A DNA stretch of 64,000 bases from Halarcobacter sp. (GTDB taxonomy: Bacteria; Campylobacterota; Campylobacteria; Campylobacterales; Arcobacteraceae): NCBI GenBank assembly GCA_030145305.1, contig JAQYVX010000007.1, forward strand, positions 62,001 to 126,000, written 5' to 3'. Every line of letters starts with the position of its first letter. The first letter of the stretch is position 1. This document shows positions 986-23,186 of the stretch, piece after piece. Under the pieces are notes generated by a model. It was not told the DNA's origin. It saw only the letters and a program-made list of their open reading frames with translations, and made no database searches. The translations under genes were made by a program, and so were the position numbers.

Positions 986-1294
986 TCAAAATTTTTGTGC
1001 TTCTTGAACACTAAGTTCAGCTAACATTGCATCTATTTTTTCTTCATTATATTTAAAATCTAATTCTGATCTTTTATTGTCTAGACTAAAAAGTAAAATT
1101 ATTAGTGAGAGCATCATATTTGAAATTCCTTTTAAAATTACTGTCACAGCAATAATTCCAAAAATCATTTCTAATGGGGTATAAAGGTCTGCGTTAATCA
1201 CAAAGAATATTAAAGTAGCAAAAAAGCCAGTGGCAATATATAATCTAAATATACCACTATTAACTACACCTTGTGAAAATTTTTCGACTACCAT
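986..1294 (-). CDS. Small integral membrane protein in the flagellar operon, function unknown
   Basis: I do not recognise this family. The 102-residue protein has a short polar N-terminus, hydrophobic segments at about 15-34 and 40-70 (the second could be one or two membrane passes), and a charged, probably helical C-terminal tail of about 30 residues. The ATG at 1294 follows a GGGA ribosome site. It sits between flhG and fliE, 30 bases from fliE, and reads the same way, so it is probably co-transcribed with flagellar genes. A role in flagellar placement or export is possible but rests only on position. Confidence 0.7.
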   Translation of the reverse strand: MVVEKFSQGVVNSGIFRLYIATGFFATLIFFVINADLYTPLEMIFGIIAVTVILKGISNMMLSLIILLFSLDNKRSELDFKYNEEKIDAMLAELSVQEAQKF

Positions 1295-1350: not shown

Positions 1351-2166
1351 TTACTTGATATCATTAAGTAATATGTCAATAATCCCTTGCAATTGTTTTG
1401 TAATATCATCATTTGCAAATTCATGTGCAAATAATTTTCTAAGCCTTGAAGTGGTAGAGATATTTGCGGATGTTGAAACATTACCTATATATTTTACCAT
1501 AAAATTTTGGTTTAAACTATTTTTTTTAGCTAAATTTACTAAAGAAGTAGTGATAGCCTCACCTATTTTATAATTTTTAGTATGATTAAAACATAATAAG
1601 AGTTTTTCTTTATCTAAAGAGAGCATTTTCATCAAGGCATAAACATCTGTTAAAGCAGAAGGATCTGTAGTTGTTAAAGCCACGACATTATTAGAGATAG
1701 AGAGAAATTCTTGAACATAAGAATTAAGTCCAGCTCCTGTATCAATTAAAACAATATCATAAATATTTAACTCTTTTAGATCTTCAATAACTCTACTTAG
1801 AACAAGAGAGTTTTTTAAATTTGAATATTGATATCCACTTTTCCCTGCTACTAAAGAAACATTTTTAAAGTTTGTATTGCTGGTCACTTCAGAAATTGTA
1901 TTTCTTCCTTCAATATAATCAAATAAGGTAAGTTTTGGTCTAATGTCAAATAAAACTTGCATATTTGCAAGTCCAATATCAGCATCAACAACTGCAATTT
2001 TATAGCCTCTTTTTGCTAAAAGATATGAAATATTTGCAGTAAAAGTTGATTTTCCAACTCCACCTTTTCCTGAAGTTATAGTTACTACTTTAGTTTTTGT
2101 TTTTTTTGAACTTGCTCTAGTTAAATTAACTAAATTTCTAGCTTGAGAGGAGATTGCATTAAACAA
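1351..2166 (-). CDS. flhG: MinD-like ATPase FlhG (FleN/YlxH), flagellar number regulator
   Basis: FlhG is a ParA/MinD-family ATPase that works with the GTPase FlhF to set flagellar number; in Campylobacterota it also influences division-site placement. The 271-residue sequence has the deviant Walker A motif SGKGGVGKS at residues 32-40, the A' motif VDADIGLAN near 60, and a Walker B-like region (IVLIDTGAGL). No ATG is available near the N-terminus; the start is TTG at 2166, supported by an AGGAG ribosome site seven bases upstream. It begins three bases after the flhF stop, the classic flhF-flhG pair. Confidence 0.95.
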   Translation of the reverse strand: MFNAISSQARNLVNLTRASSKKTKTKVVTITSGKGGVGKSTFTANISYLLAKRGYKIAVVDADIGLANMQVLFDIRPKLTLFDYIEGRNTISEVTSNTNFKNVSLVAGKSGYQYSNLKNSLVLSRVIEDLKELNIYDIVLIDTGAGLNSYVQEFLSISNNVVALTTTDPSALTDVYALMKMLSLDKEKLLLCFNHTKNYKIGEAITTSLVNLAKKNSLNQNFMVKYIGNVSTSANISTTSRLRKLFAHEFANDDITKQLQGIIDILLNDIK

Positions 2167-2169
2167 TAA

Positions 2170-3315
2170 TTATCTCCTAGCACAAGAATTATTCATAAAA
2201 CAATCAATTAAGAAACTCGAATCAGAAACAATTAAATCATCAGGAACATTTTGACCAATTGAGAAATATGTAATTGATTTTTTTGTTTTGTGAGCAAAAG
2301 AGATTAAGTTACCAAAACTCTTTGTTTCATCTAATTTTGTAAATGTTAAATAATCAATATTTAATCTTGAATAGTTAGTATAAATATCTATTAAATCACT
2401 ATGTTTTACATTTGCAGGTAAAACAAGTACTTTTTCAATTGGAAGCTCATCTACTCTTTCTTGATACTCATTTATTAATTCTATTTTATCTACGTCATAT
2501 TGAGAAGAGCCAGCAGTATCTATAAAGATATAATTACAGTCTTTTAATCTAAGTAACGCCTCTACTAAATCTTCTGGTTTTTTAACTACTTCTAAAGGTA
2601 GTCTCATAATATTTGTATAAGCGTTTAATTGTTCAATTGCCCCTACTCTAAAAGAATCTAATGTCACAATTCCAACTTTATAATTTTGCCCTAATTTATA
2701 AGCATATCTTGCAGCTAGTTTTGCAATAGTAGTAGTTTTTCCAACTCCGGTTGGTCCTACCATCATTATTATTTTTCTTTGGTGTTTTCTTAAAGGAACT
2801 TCTTGCTTAATTGGAATAATCCTTCTTAATACAAGTTTAAAAAAGTCATTCACTTTCTTTGGATTAGTTTTAAGTGCAACAGGTAATTGCTTTATGGTTT
2901 TTTTCATAATTGTATAAGTCATCTCTTGATCAAATTCATTTTGCTCAAAAAGAGTATAAATATCAATAAATTCAGGAGGAATAGTTAAATCATAAAGTTG
3001 ACTCTTAGGATCCCACAAGGTTTTTTGAACTTGCATAATAGCATCTTGCATTTTAAGAATCTCTTCTCTAAAATCATAAAACTTCGCTCCATTTGCTGGC
3101 TCTTTTTTAAAAGGAGATGATACTATTTTCTTAACATGACTAATCTCTTTTTCTTCATCTTCTAGTGCCACAATAATTTCATACATATCTTTTGTACCAT
3201 CATGTTCATTAGAAATTTTTTTTGTTGAGATAACAATCGCATCTTCTCCGCACTCTATTTGAGCATTTCTTAGTGCAATAGTAGGTGTTTCACCTAAAAA
3301 AGAGAGCATATTCAT
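2170..3315 (-). CDS. flhF: SRP-type GTPase FlhF, flagellar placement factor
   Basis: FlhF is a signal-recognition-particle family GTPase that marks the site of flagellar assembly. The 381-residue protein has a variable N-terminal B domain, an N domain and a G domain with the P-loop GPTGVGKTT at about 187-195, followed by VTLDSFRVGA, the FIDTAG G3 region and TKLDET (G4). The ATG at 3315 follows GGAAG by six bases and overlaps the previous stop by 4 bases. It is followed by flhG, its usual partner, which stimulates FlhF GTPase activity. Confidence 0.96.
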   Translation of the reverse strand: MNMLSFLGETPTIALRNAQIECGEDAIVISTKKISNEHDGTKDMYEIIVALEDEEKEISHVKKIVSSPFKKEPANGAKFYDFREEILKMQDAIMQVQKTLWDPKSQLYDLTIPPEFIDIYTLFEQNEFDQEMTYTIMKKTIKQLPVALKTNPKKVNDFFKLVLRRIIPIKQEVPLRKHQRKIIMMVGPTGVGKTTTIAKLAARYAYKLGQNYKVGIVTLDSFRVGAIEQLNAYTNIMRLPLEVVKKPEDLVEALLRLKDCNYIFIDTAGSSQYDVDKIELINEYQERVDELPIEKVLVLPANVKHSDLIDIYTNYSRLNIDYLTFTKLDETKSFGNLISFAHKTKKSITYFSIGQNVPDDLIVSDSSFLIDCFMNNSCARR

Positions 3316-5940: not shown

Positions 5941-6828
5941 TTACAATCCTATTTGATTAAGCCTTGAAGAGGCATTTCCAATATTCTTTACTTTTAATCC
6001 AAATTTACCTTCAACTATAACCGCTTCACCTTCTCCGATTTTAACGCCATTTATTAAAATTTCAAGAGGTTCGTTTACCATCTGTTCTAATTCTATAATT
6101 TCACCAATATCCCATCTAAGAATATCTTTTAATAAAAAATTCTTTGTTCCAAGTCTAACACTTAATTTTAATTTAATATCAAATAATAGTTGTAAGTTTT
6201 GTGCTGACTCTTCCGATAATAAAGAACTTATACCAAGATTTTGTTGACTTTGAGTAGCTTGAGGCTGAGGGGTTGAAATAATATTATTTTTATTTTCAAC
6301 CTCAATTTCTTCACCTATAATTTGAGATAAATAAGGAGCTATTTCATCATCGAAACTCATTAATAGAGGTAATTTCTCACCATCTAAAGTTAAATTAAAA
6401 ATGTATTTTTTATTGCTTGAGTCTATCTCTTTGCAATCTTTTATAGAAGAATTTAAAGATTCGTATTTTAAAGATTTTACATCAGGAAAGCCTTGTGCGT
6501 TAACAGAAGTACATAAACTACCACATATATTTGATACAATTTCATTAATAGCATCAGTTATTTCATCATCAATATGCTCTTTTAAATCTCCCATACCACC
6601 TAACATAAAGTATTCAAACTTCGTAGCTGTTACTGTAGGAACATAAAAATTCCAATTTGATGAAACATCTGCAAAATTAAACATTACAGAAACATTAATA
6701 CATTGAGTATCATCTAAACTAGTTATATCAAAATCTACTATTGTGTCTATTGATACATTTTTTGATAATAACTGTTCTAATGTATTCGTCAATTCATCTT
6801 TAAAAAAATTTGATAAATCAGATGCCAA
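5941..6828 (-). CDS. fliY: Flagellar motor switch protein FliY (CheC-like plus SpoA domains)
   Basis: FliY is a switch-complex protein that joins a CheC/FliM-like middle domain to a C-terminal FliN-type SpoA domain. In this 295-residue protein the CheC-like part covers about 30-180 (DEITDAINEIVSNICGSL) and the SpoA domain about 215-290 (LKLSVRLGTKNFLLKDIL). In Campylobacterota FliY co-exists with FliN, as here (fliN at 14.3 kb). No ATG is available near the N-terminus; the start is TTG at 6828 with AAAAGG seven bases upstream. No CheY-binding N-terminal motif of the FliM type is evident. Confidence 0.9.
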   Translation of the reverse strand: MASDLSNFFKDELTNTLEQLLSKNVSIDTIVDFDITSLDDTQCINVSVMFNFADVSSNWNFYVPTVTATKFEYFMLGGMGDLKEHIDDEITDAINEIVSNICGSLCTSVNAQGFPDVKSLKYESLNSSIKDCKEIDSSNKKYIFNLTLDGEKLPLLMSFDDEIAPYLSQIIGEEIEVENKNNIISTPQPQATQSQQNLGISSLLSEESAQNLQLLFDIKLKLSVRLGTKNFLLKDILRWDIGEIIELEQMVNEPLEILINGVKIGEGEAVIVEGKFGLKVKNIGNASSRLNQIGL

Positions 6829-19231: not shown

Positions 19232-20236
19232 TTACTTGTTAAATTCAGCAATTAAAGATTCTAAATCTTCATTACCTAATAAGTCGTCTGTGCTATCACC
19301 ATGTATATGATTTGCGACATTAACTTCTTGTCTATTTCCTTCATCTTCAAAAAGATTATTTAAATAACTAGAAAGTTTTCTAATAACTGACATTACTCTT
19401 TCAATTTTTTGTCTATTAATATCATGATACTGCATTAATTCCATTGCTTGAAATATTTCTGTATTACCACTATTTACTTTTTCATTTGCATCTTCTATAT
19501 AATTGCCCATTTCTTGAGCTTGATTTAAATTTTCTTTAAAAATATCAATATTAGGAAATTTTTGGCTTAAAGAATTAAGCATAGCTATTTGTTTTTCATT
19601 AAAGCTTGATAAGGCTTTAACATCACTTTGTATTGCATTATTGTAATCTAATATATTACTTAAAACATCAAAAATTTTAGTTGCTTTTTCTTCTGAATCA
19701 CTTGCAACTTCGCTTAATTGATTCACTACCTTAGTGTCATTTTCTACAGGTAAAGGAAAAAGGCCGTTGTCAATTTTATTATCTATATCTCTTTTATAAT
19801 TATCATTTGTATTTTTATGAACTAAAGATGTATCAACTTTTGGTTCATCAGGAACAACAGAAGTTACTTCATCAGAGGTATTTGTATCTAGTTCCATAAT
19901 ATCTTCTGGTATTTCAATAACATCTTCTACTGTTTCATTTTCTTCTAGTTCTTTTAATATATCATCAATATTTGTTTCATCTGCAGAAGTTTCAATATCT
20001 TCGGTGTCTTTTAAGCTATTTAATAAATCCTCTACAGATTCTTCACTACTTGAAGATTCATTAGTTGATGTAATCTCCTGTGTTTGTGATATTAATGCAT
20101 TAATATCATCCTCAGACATATTTCCCTGAGGAAGGGGTTCTTCGACATTGATTTCTTCGCTTACTTCATTGTCATCATTATCATCAATGTCTAATCCATT
20201 CATAAGAGATTCAATCTCTTCTTGACTCATACTCAT
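19232..20236 (-). CDS. cheZ: CheZ-like CheY-P phosphatase with acidic N-terminal extension
   Basis: CheZ-type phosphatases dephosphorylate CheY-P. The C-terminal third is a helical bundle with MQYHDINRQKIERV at about 268-281: Asp272 and Gln276 have the D-x3-Q spacing of the CheZ catalytic pair. The C-terminal end (DDLLGNEDLESLIAEF) resembles the CheY-binding tail of CheZ. The first 130 residues are very acidic and begin with MSQEEIESLMNG and then MSEDDINALIS, both close to the CheY-binding motif of FliM. It sits 46 bases after cheY. The family call is by motif; overall similarity to enterobacterial CheZ is low, as expected for Campylobacterota. Confidence 0.72.
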   Translation of the reverse strand: MSMSQEEIESLMNGLDIDDNDDNEVSEEINVEEPLPQGNMSEDDINALISQTQEITSTNESSSSEESVEDLLNSLKDTEDIETSADETNIDDILKELEENETVEDVIEIPEDIMELDTNTSDEVTSVVPDEPKVDTSLVHKNTNDNYKRDIDNKIDNGLFPLPVENDTKVVNQLSEVASDSEEKATKIFDVLSNILDYNNAIQSDVKALSSFNEKQIAMLNSLSQKFPNIDIFKENLNQAQEMGNYIEDANEKVNSGNTEIFQAMELMQYHDINRQKIERVMSVIRKLSSYLNNLFEDEGNRQEVNVANHIHGDSTDDLLGNEDLESLIAEFNK

Positions 20237-20282: not shown

Positions 20283-20651
20283 TTACTTTAAAACACCATC
20301 AAGTTTCTCTTTTAAGACTTCGGCATTAAAAGGTTTAACGATATAGTTGTTAACCCCTGCTTTCAACGCTGTAATAACTTCGCCTTTTCCACCTTCAGTT
20401 GTAATCATAATAATTGGACTTTTTTGATGACTTCCACCTGCTCTAACTTTCTTAACTAAATCTAAGCCATTCATATTTGGCATGTTCCAGTCCGTCAAAA
20501 TAATATCATATTGTGACTCACCTAATAATTTCCAAGCTTTTACACCATCCTCAGCTTCATCAAAATCCTCTTTCGAGTAACCAAGCTGCATTACAACATT
20601 ACCTATAATTCTTCTCATAGTCGAGCTATCATCAACTATTAATATTCTCAT
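20283..20651 (-). CDS. cheY: Chemotaxis response regulator CheY
   Basis: CheY carries the phosphoryl signal from CheA to the flagellar switch. The single receiver domain (122 residues from ATG 20651) has the acidic pair in LIVDDSS, the phosphoacceptor Asp in ILTDWNMP, the Thr in MITTEGG and the Lys in YIVKPFN. An earlier in-frame TTG at 20657 directly abuts the AAAAGG ribosome site, so ATG 20651, seven bases beyond it, is preferred. It heads a block with the CheZ-like gene and rod and MS-ring genes. Confidence 0.96.
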   Translation of the reverse strand: MRILIVDDSSTMRRIIGNVVMQLGYSKEDFDEAEDGVKAWKLLGESQYDIILTDWNMPNMNGLDLVKKVRAGGSHQKSPIIMITTEGGKGEVITALKAGVNNYIVKPFNAEVLKEKLDGVLK

Positions 20652-20689
20652 ATTCAAACCTTTTTAAAAACTATATTCAAAATCTTATT

Positions 20690-21614: not shown

Positions 21615-22043
21615 ATGTCTATGAATCTTGAAGAGTTAAAAAAACTTAGAGAAGAAAACTTTTTAAATCATAAAAAGAAAAAAAAAGAGTATTATTTAAA
21701 AAGTAAAAAAAAAGATGAGAACTCAAAATACAAAGATTACAAAGAAATAGATTATAAAGAAGAATTAAATGCTGAAAATTTTGCAAAAAATATAAAAATA
21801 ATTGCAAAAAAACAAAAAGAACATATGGATGATAGAAAAGAACAAATCTTCCAAAAGATGAGCGAGTATAAAGAAAAAAAACAAAGCTATTATCAAGAAA
21901 ATCGAGAAAAAAGATTAGAATATGATAAAGCCTATAGAGAAGAAAAAAAAGAAAGATTAAAAGAGTACAGACGAGAATATTATAAGAAAAATAAAGAAAA
22001 AATATTACAAAGACAAAAAGAAAATAGAAAAGCAATTAGTTGA
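21615..22043 (+). CDS. Lys/Glu/Tyr-rich repeat protein of unknown function
   Basis: The 142-residue protein is extremely basic and helical: Lys and Glu together make up nearly half of it, with Tyr at regular spacing. The C-terminal half carries a repeating pattern of the type YY-x2-N-x-EK (SYYQENREKRLEY, then EYYKKNKEKILQR). There is no Cys, Trp, signal peptide or membrane helix. I do not recognise a function. It starts 17 bases after flgG with hardly any ribosome site; TATAAT-like sequence in the gap could be its own promoter. The A-rich coding strand makes a long but meaningless open frame on the other strand. Confidence 0.65.
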   Translation: MSMNLEELKKLREENFLNHKKKKKEYYLKSKKKDENSKYKDYKEIDYKEELNAENFAKNIKIIAKKQKEHMDDRKEQIFQKMSEYKEKKQSYYQENREKRLEYDKAYREEKKERLKEYRREYYKKNKEKILQRQKENRKAIS

Positions 22044-22067: not shown

Positions 22068-23186
22068 ATGGCAGATAAAAGTGATGAAGAGATTATAAAA
22101 GAAGTCGGCCTAGAGGCTTCAGATGAATTAAATGAACAAGAAACATTAGATCAACTGTCTTTAACTGATGACAAAGATGAAAATCTTTTAAGCCCTATTA
22201 ATGAAAGGGATAAGGATTCAAAAAATAGAAATGACAATGTTATCGAAAATGAAGATAGAGATGGCATAGAAAAAACAAAAAATGATGAAGATAGTACTGA
22301 AGAAAATTCAGAGCCAGTGCAAAAAAAACAACCAAAAATTTACAAAATATTACTAAGCTTAGCTGCATTCTTAATTTTAATATTAATTACAGGTGGTGTT
22401 TTATACTTAACAGGTTTTTTTGATTCTAAACCTATAAAACCTATAGAAAAGAAAACTATTACAAAAAATGTAGTAGAAGAAATTGATTTTGATACAAACG
22501 AAATAAATAAAAAAAGACTAAATAAAAAACTTAGCTCACTTACAAAACGTGAAATAATGAATAAAGAAGAATTAGAATCAGAAGAAAATAAAATAAAAGA
22601 AGAAGAAAGAAAAAAGAAAAAAGCTGAAGAAAAAGAAAGACTAGAGAAAAAGCAAAAAGAAGAAGCTTTAGTTGCAGCTCAATTAGTAAAATTAGAAGAA
22701 GAAAAGAAAGCTCTAGAAAATCAGCAAAAAATCATAAAAGAAGAGCAAGAAAAATTTTTACAATTACAGATACAAGCTAAAGAAGAATTAGCTCAAGCTC
22801 AAGCTAAGTTATTAGAAGAATTAAATAATACAAAAGGCATGTCTAAAAATAAGCAAGAACAACCATATGCAAATGAGACAACAGAAGCTATAGAAGAACT
22901 AAGTAATCAAGAAGAAGATTTAATCAATAATTCGTTCTTGTCTTTTATTAATGTTGCTACAATTAAAGGTGAATTGTATAAATCATATTTAGATAAAGCA
23001 CAAAAACATTATAAGAACATCTCGATATGTAGGGATAATAAAAATCGAATTGAAATATATTTTGGACCTTTTTATTCTTCAAAAGAACGAAAAAAAGTAT
23101 TTGATAATTTACTTGAAGATGGTTTTAAAGAATCTTATTTAATAGATTTTACAAATGAAGAGTATAACAAAAGATGTAAGTATTAA
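22068..23186 (+). CDS. Single-pass membrane protein with long coiled coil and SPOR-like C-terminus
   Basis: In order the 372-residue protein has an acidic cytoplasmic N-terminus (1-85), one membrane helix (about 93-117), a highly charged coiled coil (about 150-256), and a C-terminal periplasmic domain (about 288-372). That domain includes RIEIYFGPFYSSKERKKVF, which resembles the strand-helix core of SPOR domains. Two Cys in the C-terminal domain (SICRDNK and KRCKY) could form a disulfide. SPOR domains bind denuded peptidoglycan, so it may link the envelope to the flagellar motor. Function is not established; the flgG neighbour suggests a motility role. Confidence 0.65.
   Translation: MADKSDEEIIKEVGLEASDELNEQETLDQLSLTDDKDENLLSPINERDKDSKNRNDNVIENEDRDGIEKTKNDEDSTEENSEPVQKKQPKIYKILLSLAAFLILILITGGVLYLTGFFDSKPIKPIEKKTITKNVVEEIDFDTNEINKKRLNKKLSSLTKREIMNKEELESEENKIKEEERKKKKAEEKERLEKKQKEEALVAAQLVKLEEEKKALENQQKIIKEEQEKFLQLQIQAKEELAQAQAKLLEELNNTKGMSKNKQEQPYANETTEAIEELSNQEEDLINNSFLSFINVATIKGELYKSYLDKAQKHYKNISICRDNKNRIEIYFGPFYSSKERKKVFDNLLEDGFKESYLIDFTNEEYNKRCKY

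Follow-up and report, generated by a model that had tools for sequence, protein, structure and literature searches.

The question raised by this locus is why a phosphatase of the response regulator CheY should begin like FliM, the flagellar rotor protein that CheY acts on. The gene in question, cheZ, lies in a 64,000-nucleotide stretch of a Halarcobacter sp. genome (contig JAQYVX010000007.1, positions 62,001 to 126,000), hereafter the window. It is an open reading frame (ORF) at 20236..19232 on the minus strand, with an ATG start and 334 residues. An initial annotation had placed here, at 19232-20236, a CheZ-like phosphatase with FliM-type CheY-binding motifs at its N-terminus. The coordinates are right, for an ORF that runs on the minus strand, and profiles, conservation and controls bear out both the phosphatase identity and the resemblance of the N-terminal peptides to FliM. 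Judged from its sequence, the enzyme is a known one; what sets it apart is a docking architecture that is unusual and strongly conserved.

CheZ and its FliM-type N-terminus

We found that NF041271 (Phos_CheZ) matches CheZ residues 114-332 at E 1e-36 (126.7 of 350 bits, below the curated cut-off) and that Pfam CheZ matches the ORF at E 4.9e-5, also below cut-off. A search of the PDB with the single CheZ sequence gave coiled-coil-like chance matches only, and a family profile was needed. With that family profile the top match was E. coli CheZ (1kmi_Z, E 0.0098), with catalytic residues and tail aligned. The catalytic pair is D272-INR-Q276 (19409..19423; this and the CheZ features below are all on the minus strand), which is aligned with DLTGQ of E. 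coli CheZ. Both columns are invariant in alignment A1, a hand-picked 50 of 62 CheZ sequences with the source protein included. The chain ends in ...TDDLLGNEDLESLIAEFNK, and the C-terminal docking tail, residues 321-332 (GNEDLESLIAEF; 19241..19276), aligns with the E. coli tail in the same match, its columns D324 and L328 standing at 96% in the 50 CheZ. The D-x3-Q pair and the CheZ-like tail that had been read at this locus are thus both present. Because of the family matches, the 1kmi_Z profile match and the invariance of D272 and Q276, we take 20236..19232 to encode a genuine CheZ, the predicted phosphatase of the adjacent CheY (CheYz). Named homologues come from Arcobacter, Malaciobacter, Arcobacteraceae, and uncultured Campylobacteraceae or Campylobacterales records.

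CheZ residues 1-14 read MSMSQEEIESLMNG; the initial annotation had started from the second methionine. We scored the protein with a BLOSUM62 profile of ten distinct FliM N-terminal ten-mers (Campylobacterota and E. coli) against a background of 18,528 ten-mers from the 67 non-overlapping window ORFs of at least 80 residues, for which the 99.9th percentile is 16.1. Three CheZ sites scored 31.6, 23.8 and 22.0, which are ranks 1, 3 and 4 of all 18,528. The first is motif 1 (residues 3-12, MSQEEIESLM; 20201..20230) and the second motif 2 (residues 40-50, MSEDDINALIS; 20087..20119), both of the FliM N-terminal type. The third is linker motif 3 (residues 64-75, SEESVEDLLNSL; 20012..20047), which is CheZ-tail-like. 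Linker motif 4 (residues 86-97, DETNIDDILKEL; 19946..19981) scored 15.2 and is weak alone. The repeat of the theme at residue 40 and the DDIL/EDLL segments further on are therefore in the sequence as first described, the acidic segments being SVEDLLNSL (67-75) and NIDDILKEL (89-97). None of 5000 shuffles of residues 1-140 produced a site equal to the best one (p 0.0002), and the second, third and fourth sites had p values of 0.0006, 0.0002 and 0.005. With motif 1 taken out, the following three sites gave 0.014, 0.0002 and 0.03. The profile, the motif model and the predicted helix agree on the amphipathic FliM-type pattern [ST]Q[DE]E[IL][DE]xL[LM].

An AlphaFold2 (AF2) model of CheZ has a mean predicted local distance difference test score (pLDDT) of 71 and a predicted template-modelling score (pTM) of 0.41. 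It gives with high confidence a long helical hairpin, residues 169-226 and 231-297 (19346..19732), with block means of 89-98 pLDDT over residues 181-290; the D272-x3-Q276 pair falls on the second helix. Outside the hairpin (169-297) the model puts separate short helices at 5-14, 42-58, 68-80, 90-99 and 322-333, which correspond to motifs 1 to 4 and the tail. Block pLDDT is 78 then 61 at motif 1, 83 then 63 at motif 2, 78 at motif 4 and 70-74 at the tail. Foldseek with this model found nothing at E <= 0.001. The VIA-align matches were generic helical hairpins, the best of them at Z 11.3, a value in the tool's warning range for helical bundles, and E. coli CheZ was not among the matches listed.

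In a count made without a regular expression, 103 of 104 Campylobacterota CheZ loci have an N-terminal site that scores at least 25 just after a methionine, at least seven of the loci being duplicates. This site ranks best in 61 of 62 non-redundant CheZ, and the motif occurs in each of the 12 families of the phylum from which a CheZ was taken. In the 50 aligned sequences columns L11 and M12 of motif 1 stand at 96%, and the mean column majority is 0.83 for the motif, 0.77 for the active-site region and 0.21 for the next 25 residues, a figure also lowered by gaps (0.58). The sequences for A1 and for the 62-sequence tests were cut by a motif regular expression, which dropped only locus L107, and the invariance of M, Q, E and E in A1 follows partly from that selection. 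Loci L001-L030 and L044-L073 were the best-scoring matches. In a set of 30 genomes, one per genus and chosen among the 54 genera in which a match was found (L078-L107; genera of family f2 absent), 29 carry the motif; the exception is L107, a protein of 132 residues whose genome has no FliM. We added 22 further genomes against selection bias, the weakest listed matches included, and 16 of these have the site. Among the 14 of the 22 in which D-x3-Q was found by regular expression, 13 have it, L190 being the one without. In five genomes of family f3, which we infer to be Helicobacteraceae, CheZ starts MTQEELDALMAG in four and MTQEELDALMAGR in one, and the pair is at 187/191 as against 189/193 in H. 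pylori.

Most motif 1 codons vary, with six leucine codons at one position across the 62 CheZ. Since the residues stay while the codons vary, selection acts on the protein. The last position of the motif is methionine in 57 of 62 CheZ and leucine in FliM. A mis-start at motif 1, with motif 2 as the true start, was ruled out, as all 43 Arcobacteraceae loci that were read have motif 1. Some matches start at residue 39; in one such locus (L041) motif 1 was present, and BLAST had aligned motif 1 to motif 2. These data indicate that the N-terminal motif is a candidate docking element conserved across the phylum rather than peculiar to the source gene, next to a linker that is unconserved.

Mini-CheZ proteins were also seen. 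L190 is one of 132 residues in an Arcobacteraceae genome, without the N-terminal motif. Another contig of the source genome (C6) encodes a 123-residue mini-CheZ beside a chemoreceptor gene (L155:6115-6486, minus strand), with DLHRQ as its catalytic motif, SNDELEALIQSMGK as its docking tail and no N-terminal FliM-like motif. Similar short second matches occur in other Arcobacteraceae genomes.

Controls, other carriers and the extra copies in Arcobacteraceae

The N-termini of FliM carried [ST]Q[END]EID[AQM]LL in 29 of 29 FliM loci, a count that leaves out two weak second matches. The C-terminal tail is the established CheY-binding peptide of E. coli-type CheZ. We found that the FliM profile picks this tail as the best site in five of five Pseudomonadota CheZ, namely E. 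coli and four others chosen from 75 plasmid records. A FliM-type N-terminal site was absent from those four (at most 10.8), and none of the five best sites of E. coli CheZ was at the N-terminus. Since the FliM profile finds the known CheY-binding tail in Pseudomonadota CheZ, this type of motif marks a CheY ligand. Studies of CheY with peptides from FliM and from CheZ are referred to in PMC9126983 (papers are cited here from excerpts of their text). Within the 62 family CheZ, N-termini scored above 16.1 in all and tails in 45. Most Campylobacterota CheZ thus carry a FliM-type motif at both ends.

A model built from seven such peptides was run over the whole 3.03-Mb genome. It returned its three training sites in CheZ and then the genome's own FliM, which was outside the training set (E 0.036). 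Two more matches, at E 0.64 and 0.94, fell in unrelated enzyme ORFs that we take to resemble siroheme synthase and uroporphyrinogen decarboxylase, and these were taken as chance. At that sensitivity the genome's clear carriers are therefore FliM and CheZ.

Rank 2 among the FliM-type motifs of the window is the tail YNEEKIDAMLAELSVQ of a 102-residue membrane-protein-like ORF between flhG and fliE (986..1294, minus strand), for which no Pfam or NCBIfam family was found. It adjoins flhFG, as flgV does in other Campylobacterota; FlgV is reported in the excerpt of PMC9321776 as not found in Arcobacter. A FliY-like C-ring protein (5941..6828, minus strand) has a weak CheX match (E 0.0036), and no EIDAL-like stretch was seen by eye at its N-terminus.

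The internal copies are a feature of Arcobacteraceae. A FliM-profile site above 16.1 that starts at residues 15-75 occurs in 26 of 29 Arcobacteraceae CheZ and in 2 of 33 others, a count that does not separate motif 2 from the linker motifs. For the latter we used a CheZ-tail-like pattern, hydrophobic-[DEN]-[DEN]-[ILMV]-[LIVM]-x-x-hydrophobic. We found 63 of these in the 29 Arcobacteraceae linkers, as against 1.6 on average and at most 7 in 1000 shuffles that kept composition, with 0 to 4 copies per protein. As motifs 3 and 4 are weak alone, the linker copies rest on this family-wide enrichment. The linkers of the 33 other CheZ have a median of 56 residues, as against an arm of about 150 residues here.

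Possible partners of the arm

On balance we think it probable that this protein is a CheYz phosphatase with a disordered arm, which carries several CheY-docking helices besides the catalytic tail and mimics FliM with one of them. The D-x3-Q active site would sit on the long helical hairpin, with the C-terminal helix as the classical docking tail for phosphorylated CheY (CheY-P). The arm of about 150 residues ahead of the hairpin would offer a FliM-type helix at the N-terminus, a second near residue 40 and CheZ-tail-type helices; the N-terminal helix would be phylum-wide, and those of the CheZ-tail type characteristic of Arcobacteraceae. On CheY, the tail peptide of CheZ and the FliM N-terminus bind one and the same face. 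Each short amphipathic helix may weakly bind CheY-P in the alpha4-alpha5 groove used by FliM, where the FliM N-terminus captures CheY-P before passing it to the FliM middle domain (PMC9126983). A CheZ dimer, if one forms, could then hold several CheY-P at once and feed the active site. The arm would catch CheY-P more often at low concentration, and CheZ would compete with FliM for one CheY-P pool through the same kind of peptide, tuning the sharpness of the motor response. The initial annotation had proposed several docking sites on one phosphatase, which would increase local capture of CheY-P or tie the enzyme to the switch. As sequence anatomy they stand (motif scores, family enrichment, AF2 helices), and CheY docking itself is predicted from that anatomy.

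The partner is present next door. The gene immediately upstream of cheZ is cheY (20283..20657, minus strand; Response_reg 3e-28), and its product, CheYz, retains D57, W58, T87, K92, Y106, K109 and K119 in alignment with E. coli CheY. All 44 Arcobacteraceae loci, with at least six duplicates among them, have a CheY ORF upstream of cheZ. The cheYZ pair of Arcobacter has been described as a remnant of an ancestral F3 system in the flagellar locus, with CheYz proposed to contact FliM (Mo et al., PMC9321776). The gene is therefore known and the arm is the point of interest. We found no report of a FliM-like N-terminus of CheZ in the open-access PMC literature as excerpted; prior notice is possible in the H. 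pylori CheZ papers of 2010 and 2015 and in the paper on ChePep.

Relatives that lost the catalytic pair bear on what the motif does. In one genus (g39, of family f2, members with FliM) the D-x3-Q pair is lost in all four loci. Two of these, L186 and L187, retain the N-terminal motif as NQEELEALMQ and NQEELDALMK, while L188 and L189 have lost the pair and the tail together with much of the N-terminal motif. CheZ is in apparent decay in this lineage, which has FliM. In L185, of another genus, the motif is kept and the glutamine of the pair is changed to lysine. Since L186 and L187 kept the motif after losing the pair, the motif has a role apart from catalysis, and its outlasting of catalysis argues for a separable docking role with the partner unspecified. 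The pair-loss cases may be few independent events.

This outlasting fits the deletion data for H. pylori CheZ, whose phosphatase function and biofilm phenotype are unchanged without residues 1-39 and are not kept without the last 12 residues (PMC11237671). Because the protein stays functional without residues 1-39, the arm would adjust capture, or competition with FliM, rather than catalysis. The same paper calls the N-terminal region of H. pylori CheZ one of unknown function; the conservation of the motif suggests a concrete role for the family, that of a FliM-like docking peptide.

Several observations weigh against CheY docking by the arm. The H. pylori deletion that leaves function unchanged is one of them. 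CheYz has glycine, not lysine, at position 91 in alignment with E. coli CheY, a position listed among the conserved CheYz positions in PMC9321776, and outside Arcobacteraceae cheY adjoins cheZ in 0 of 58 loci, the single match there being the source genome again. The tail of CheZ itself scores 14.5 with the FliM profile, under the 16.1 threshold, as do the tails of 17 of the 62. With motifs 1 and 2 taken out, the following two sites have p values of 0.03 and 0.08, weak alone, and AF2 confidence is low at motif 3 (block pLDDT 50-60). Linker copies are absent in 4 of 29 Arcobacteraceae CheZ; none was found in the 33 other CheZ linkers, where only 0.12 were expected, so this absence says little. 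The linker pattern was chosen after seeing the same sequences, and the 29 proteins are related. The codons of Q5 and E6 hardly vary (CAA in 57 and GAA in 61 of 62). Finally, six of the 22 further genomes lack the N-terminal motif: the exception L190 named above, the degenerate L188 and L189, L191 and L192, where the genome has no FliM, and L193.

An alternative that we consider unlikely is that the N-terminal peptide docks FlhG, the MinD-like regulator of flagellar number, and so places CheZ at the pole or the switch instead of binding CheY. Reportedly, polar localisation of H. pylori CheZ maps to the central domain (a 2015 abstract), which we counted against this. FlhG docking would also leave the CheZ-tail-type copies unexplained, and those match a CheY ligand; in C. 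jejuni a stable contact of FlhG with a C-ring protein had not been detected, according to the excerpt of PMC6946799. FlhG does bind the FliM N-terminus in some bacteria (PMC12826062), flhF (2170..3315; TIGR03499 over cut-off) and flhG (1351..2166) are both in the window, which adds to the points against CheY docking, and a motif that outlives the catalytic pair in L186 and L187 fits any partner, FlhG included.

We regard it as quite improbable that a lineage-specific adaptor, CheO or ChePep, recognises the N-terminal peptide as an element common to FliM and CheZ. Both proteins do share the peptide. C. jejuni CheO pulls down CheA, CheZ, FliM and FliY, and not CheY, in the excerpt of PMC9665402, and ChePep is important for the polar localisation and function of H. 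pylori CheZ (PMC11237671). Against this, the window's 18 best FliM-motif sites include none in the genome's own FliY, though C. jejuni CheO binds FliY. That the N-terminus is conserved for translation start or protein stability only, with the linker motifs a by-product of acidic low complexity, is very improbable: in its favour are an acidic, repetitive linker, the weakness of motifs 3 and 4 alone and two nearly fixed codons, but composition-keeping shuffles fail to reproduce the motifs, most other motif codons vary while the residues stay, and Pseudomonadota CheZ have the motif at the C-terminus, not the start.

A bolder extension of CheY docking by the arm is one we put forward tentatively and hold to be doubtful. 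It would make FliM mimicry by CheZ, in competition for CheY-P, a feature found across Campylobacterota. Arcobacteraceae CheZ would be a multivalent trap for CheY-P: each chain would bear roughly four to six docking helices, and the outcome would be a signal that is buffered and switch-like, or else a cluster of CheZ and CheY-P at the motor. If CheY docking is true, phosphatase and motor would share one ligand motif, linking signal removal to signal reading, and the multiplicity of docking would be an evolvable control of chemotactic gain.

Neighbouring genes and comparison with known systems

The cheZ gene sits in a flagellar locus directly 3' of cheY, with a flgF-like gene downstream and flgG divergent upstream. 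Other downstream genes are presumably flgB/C-like, fliF, fliG and fliH, as named from sequence. Two lysine/glutamate-rich proteins are encoded downstream of flgG (21615..22043 and 22068..23186, both plus strand); for neither did a Pfam or NCBIfam family pass its cut-off.

FliY belongs to the C-ring; its active site is of the CheC type, and its fold is unrelated to that of CheZ. In Bacillus, FliY (EIDAL plus CheC-like domains) resembles the CheZ described here in being a CheY-P-hydrolysing protein with an EIDAL docking peptide (PMC12826062). The FliM N-terminal CheY-binding peptide has the same pattern, [ST]Q[DE]E[IL][DE]xL[LM], at the same end of the chain, and FliM and CheZ are both encoded in the genome; the peptide of FliM is on the rotor, whereas that of CheZ is on the phosphatase. 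E. coli CheZ shares the D-x3-Q pair, the C-terminal CheY-docking tail and a gene that adjoins cheY. However, it is without a FliM-like N-terminus or repeated docking peptides, and its best FliM-profile site is the tail (30.9), with the next at 12.0. The closest comparison is with the remote CheZ of Campylobacterota (NF041271; H. pylori CheZ), which belong to the same family by profile and have the same N-terminal motif. The CheZ described here differs in having motif 2 and linker copies on an arm of about 150 residues; the linkers of the other 33 are shorter and without a linker motif.
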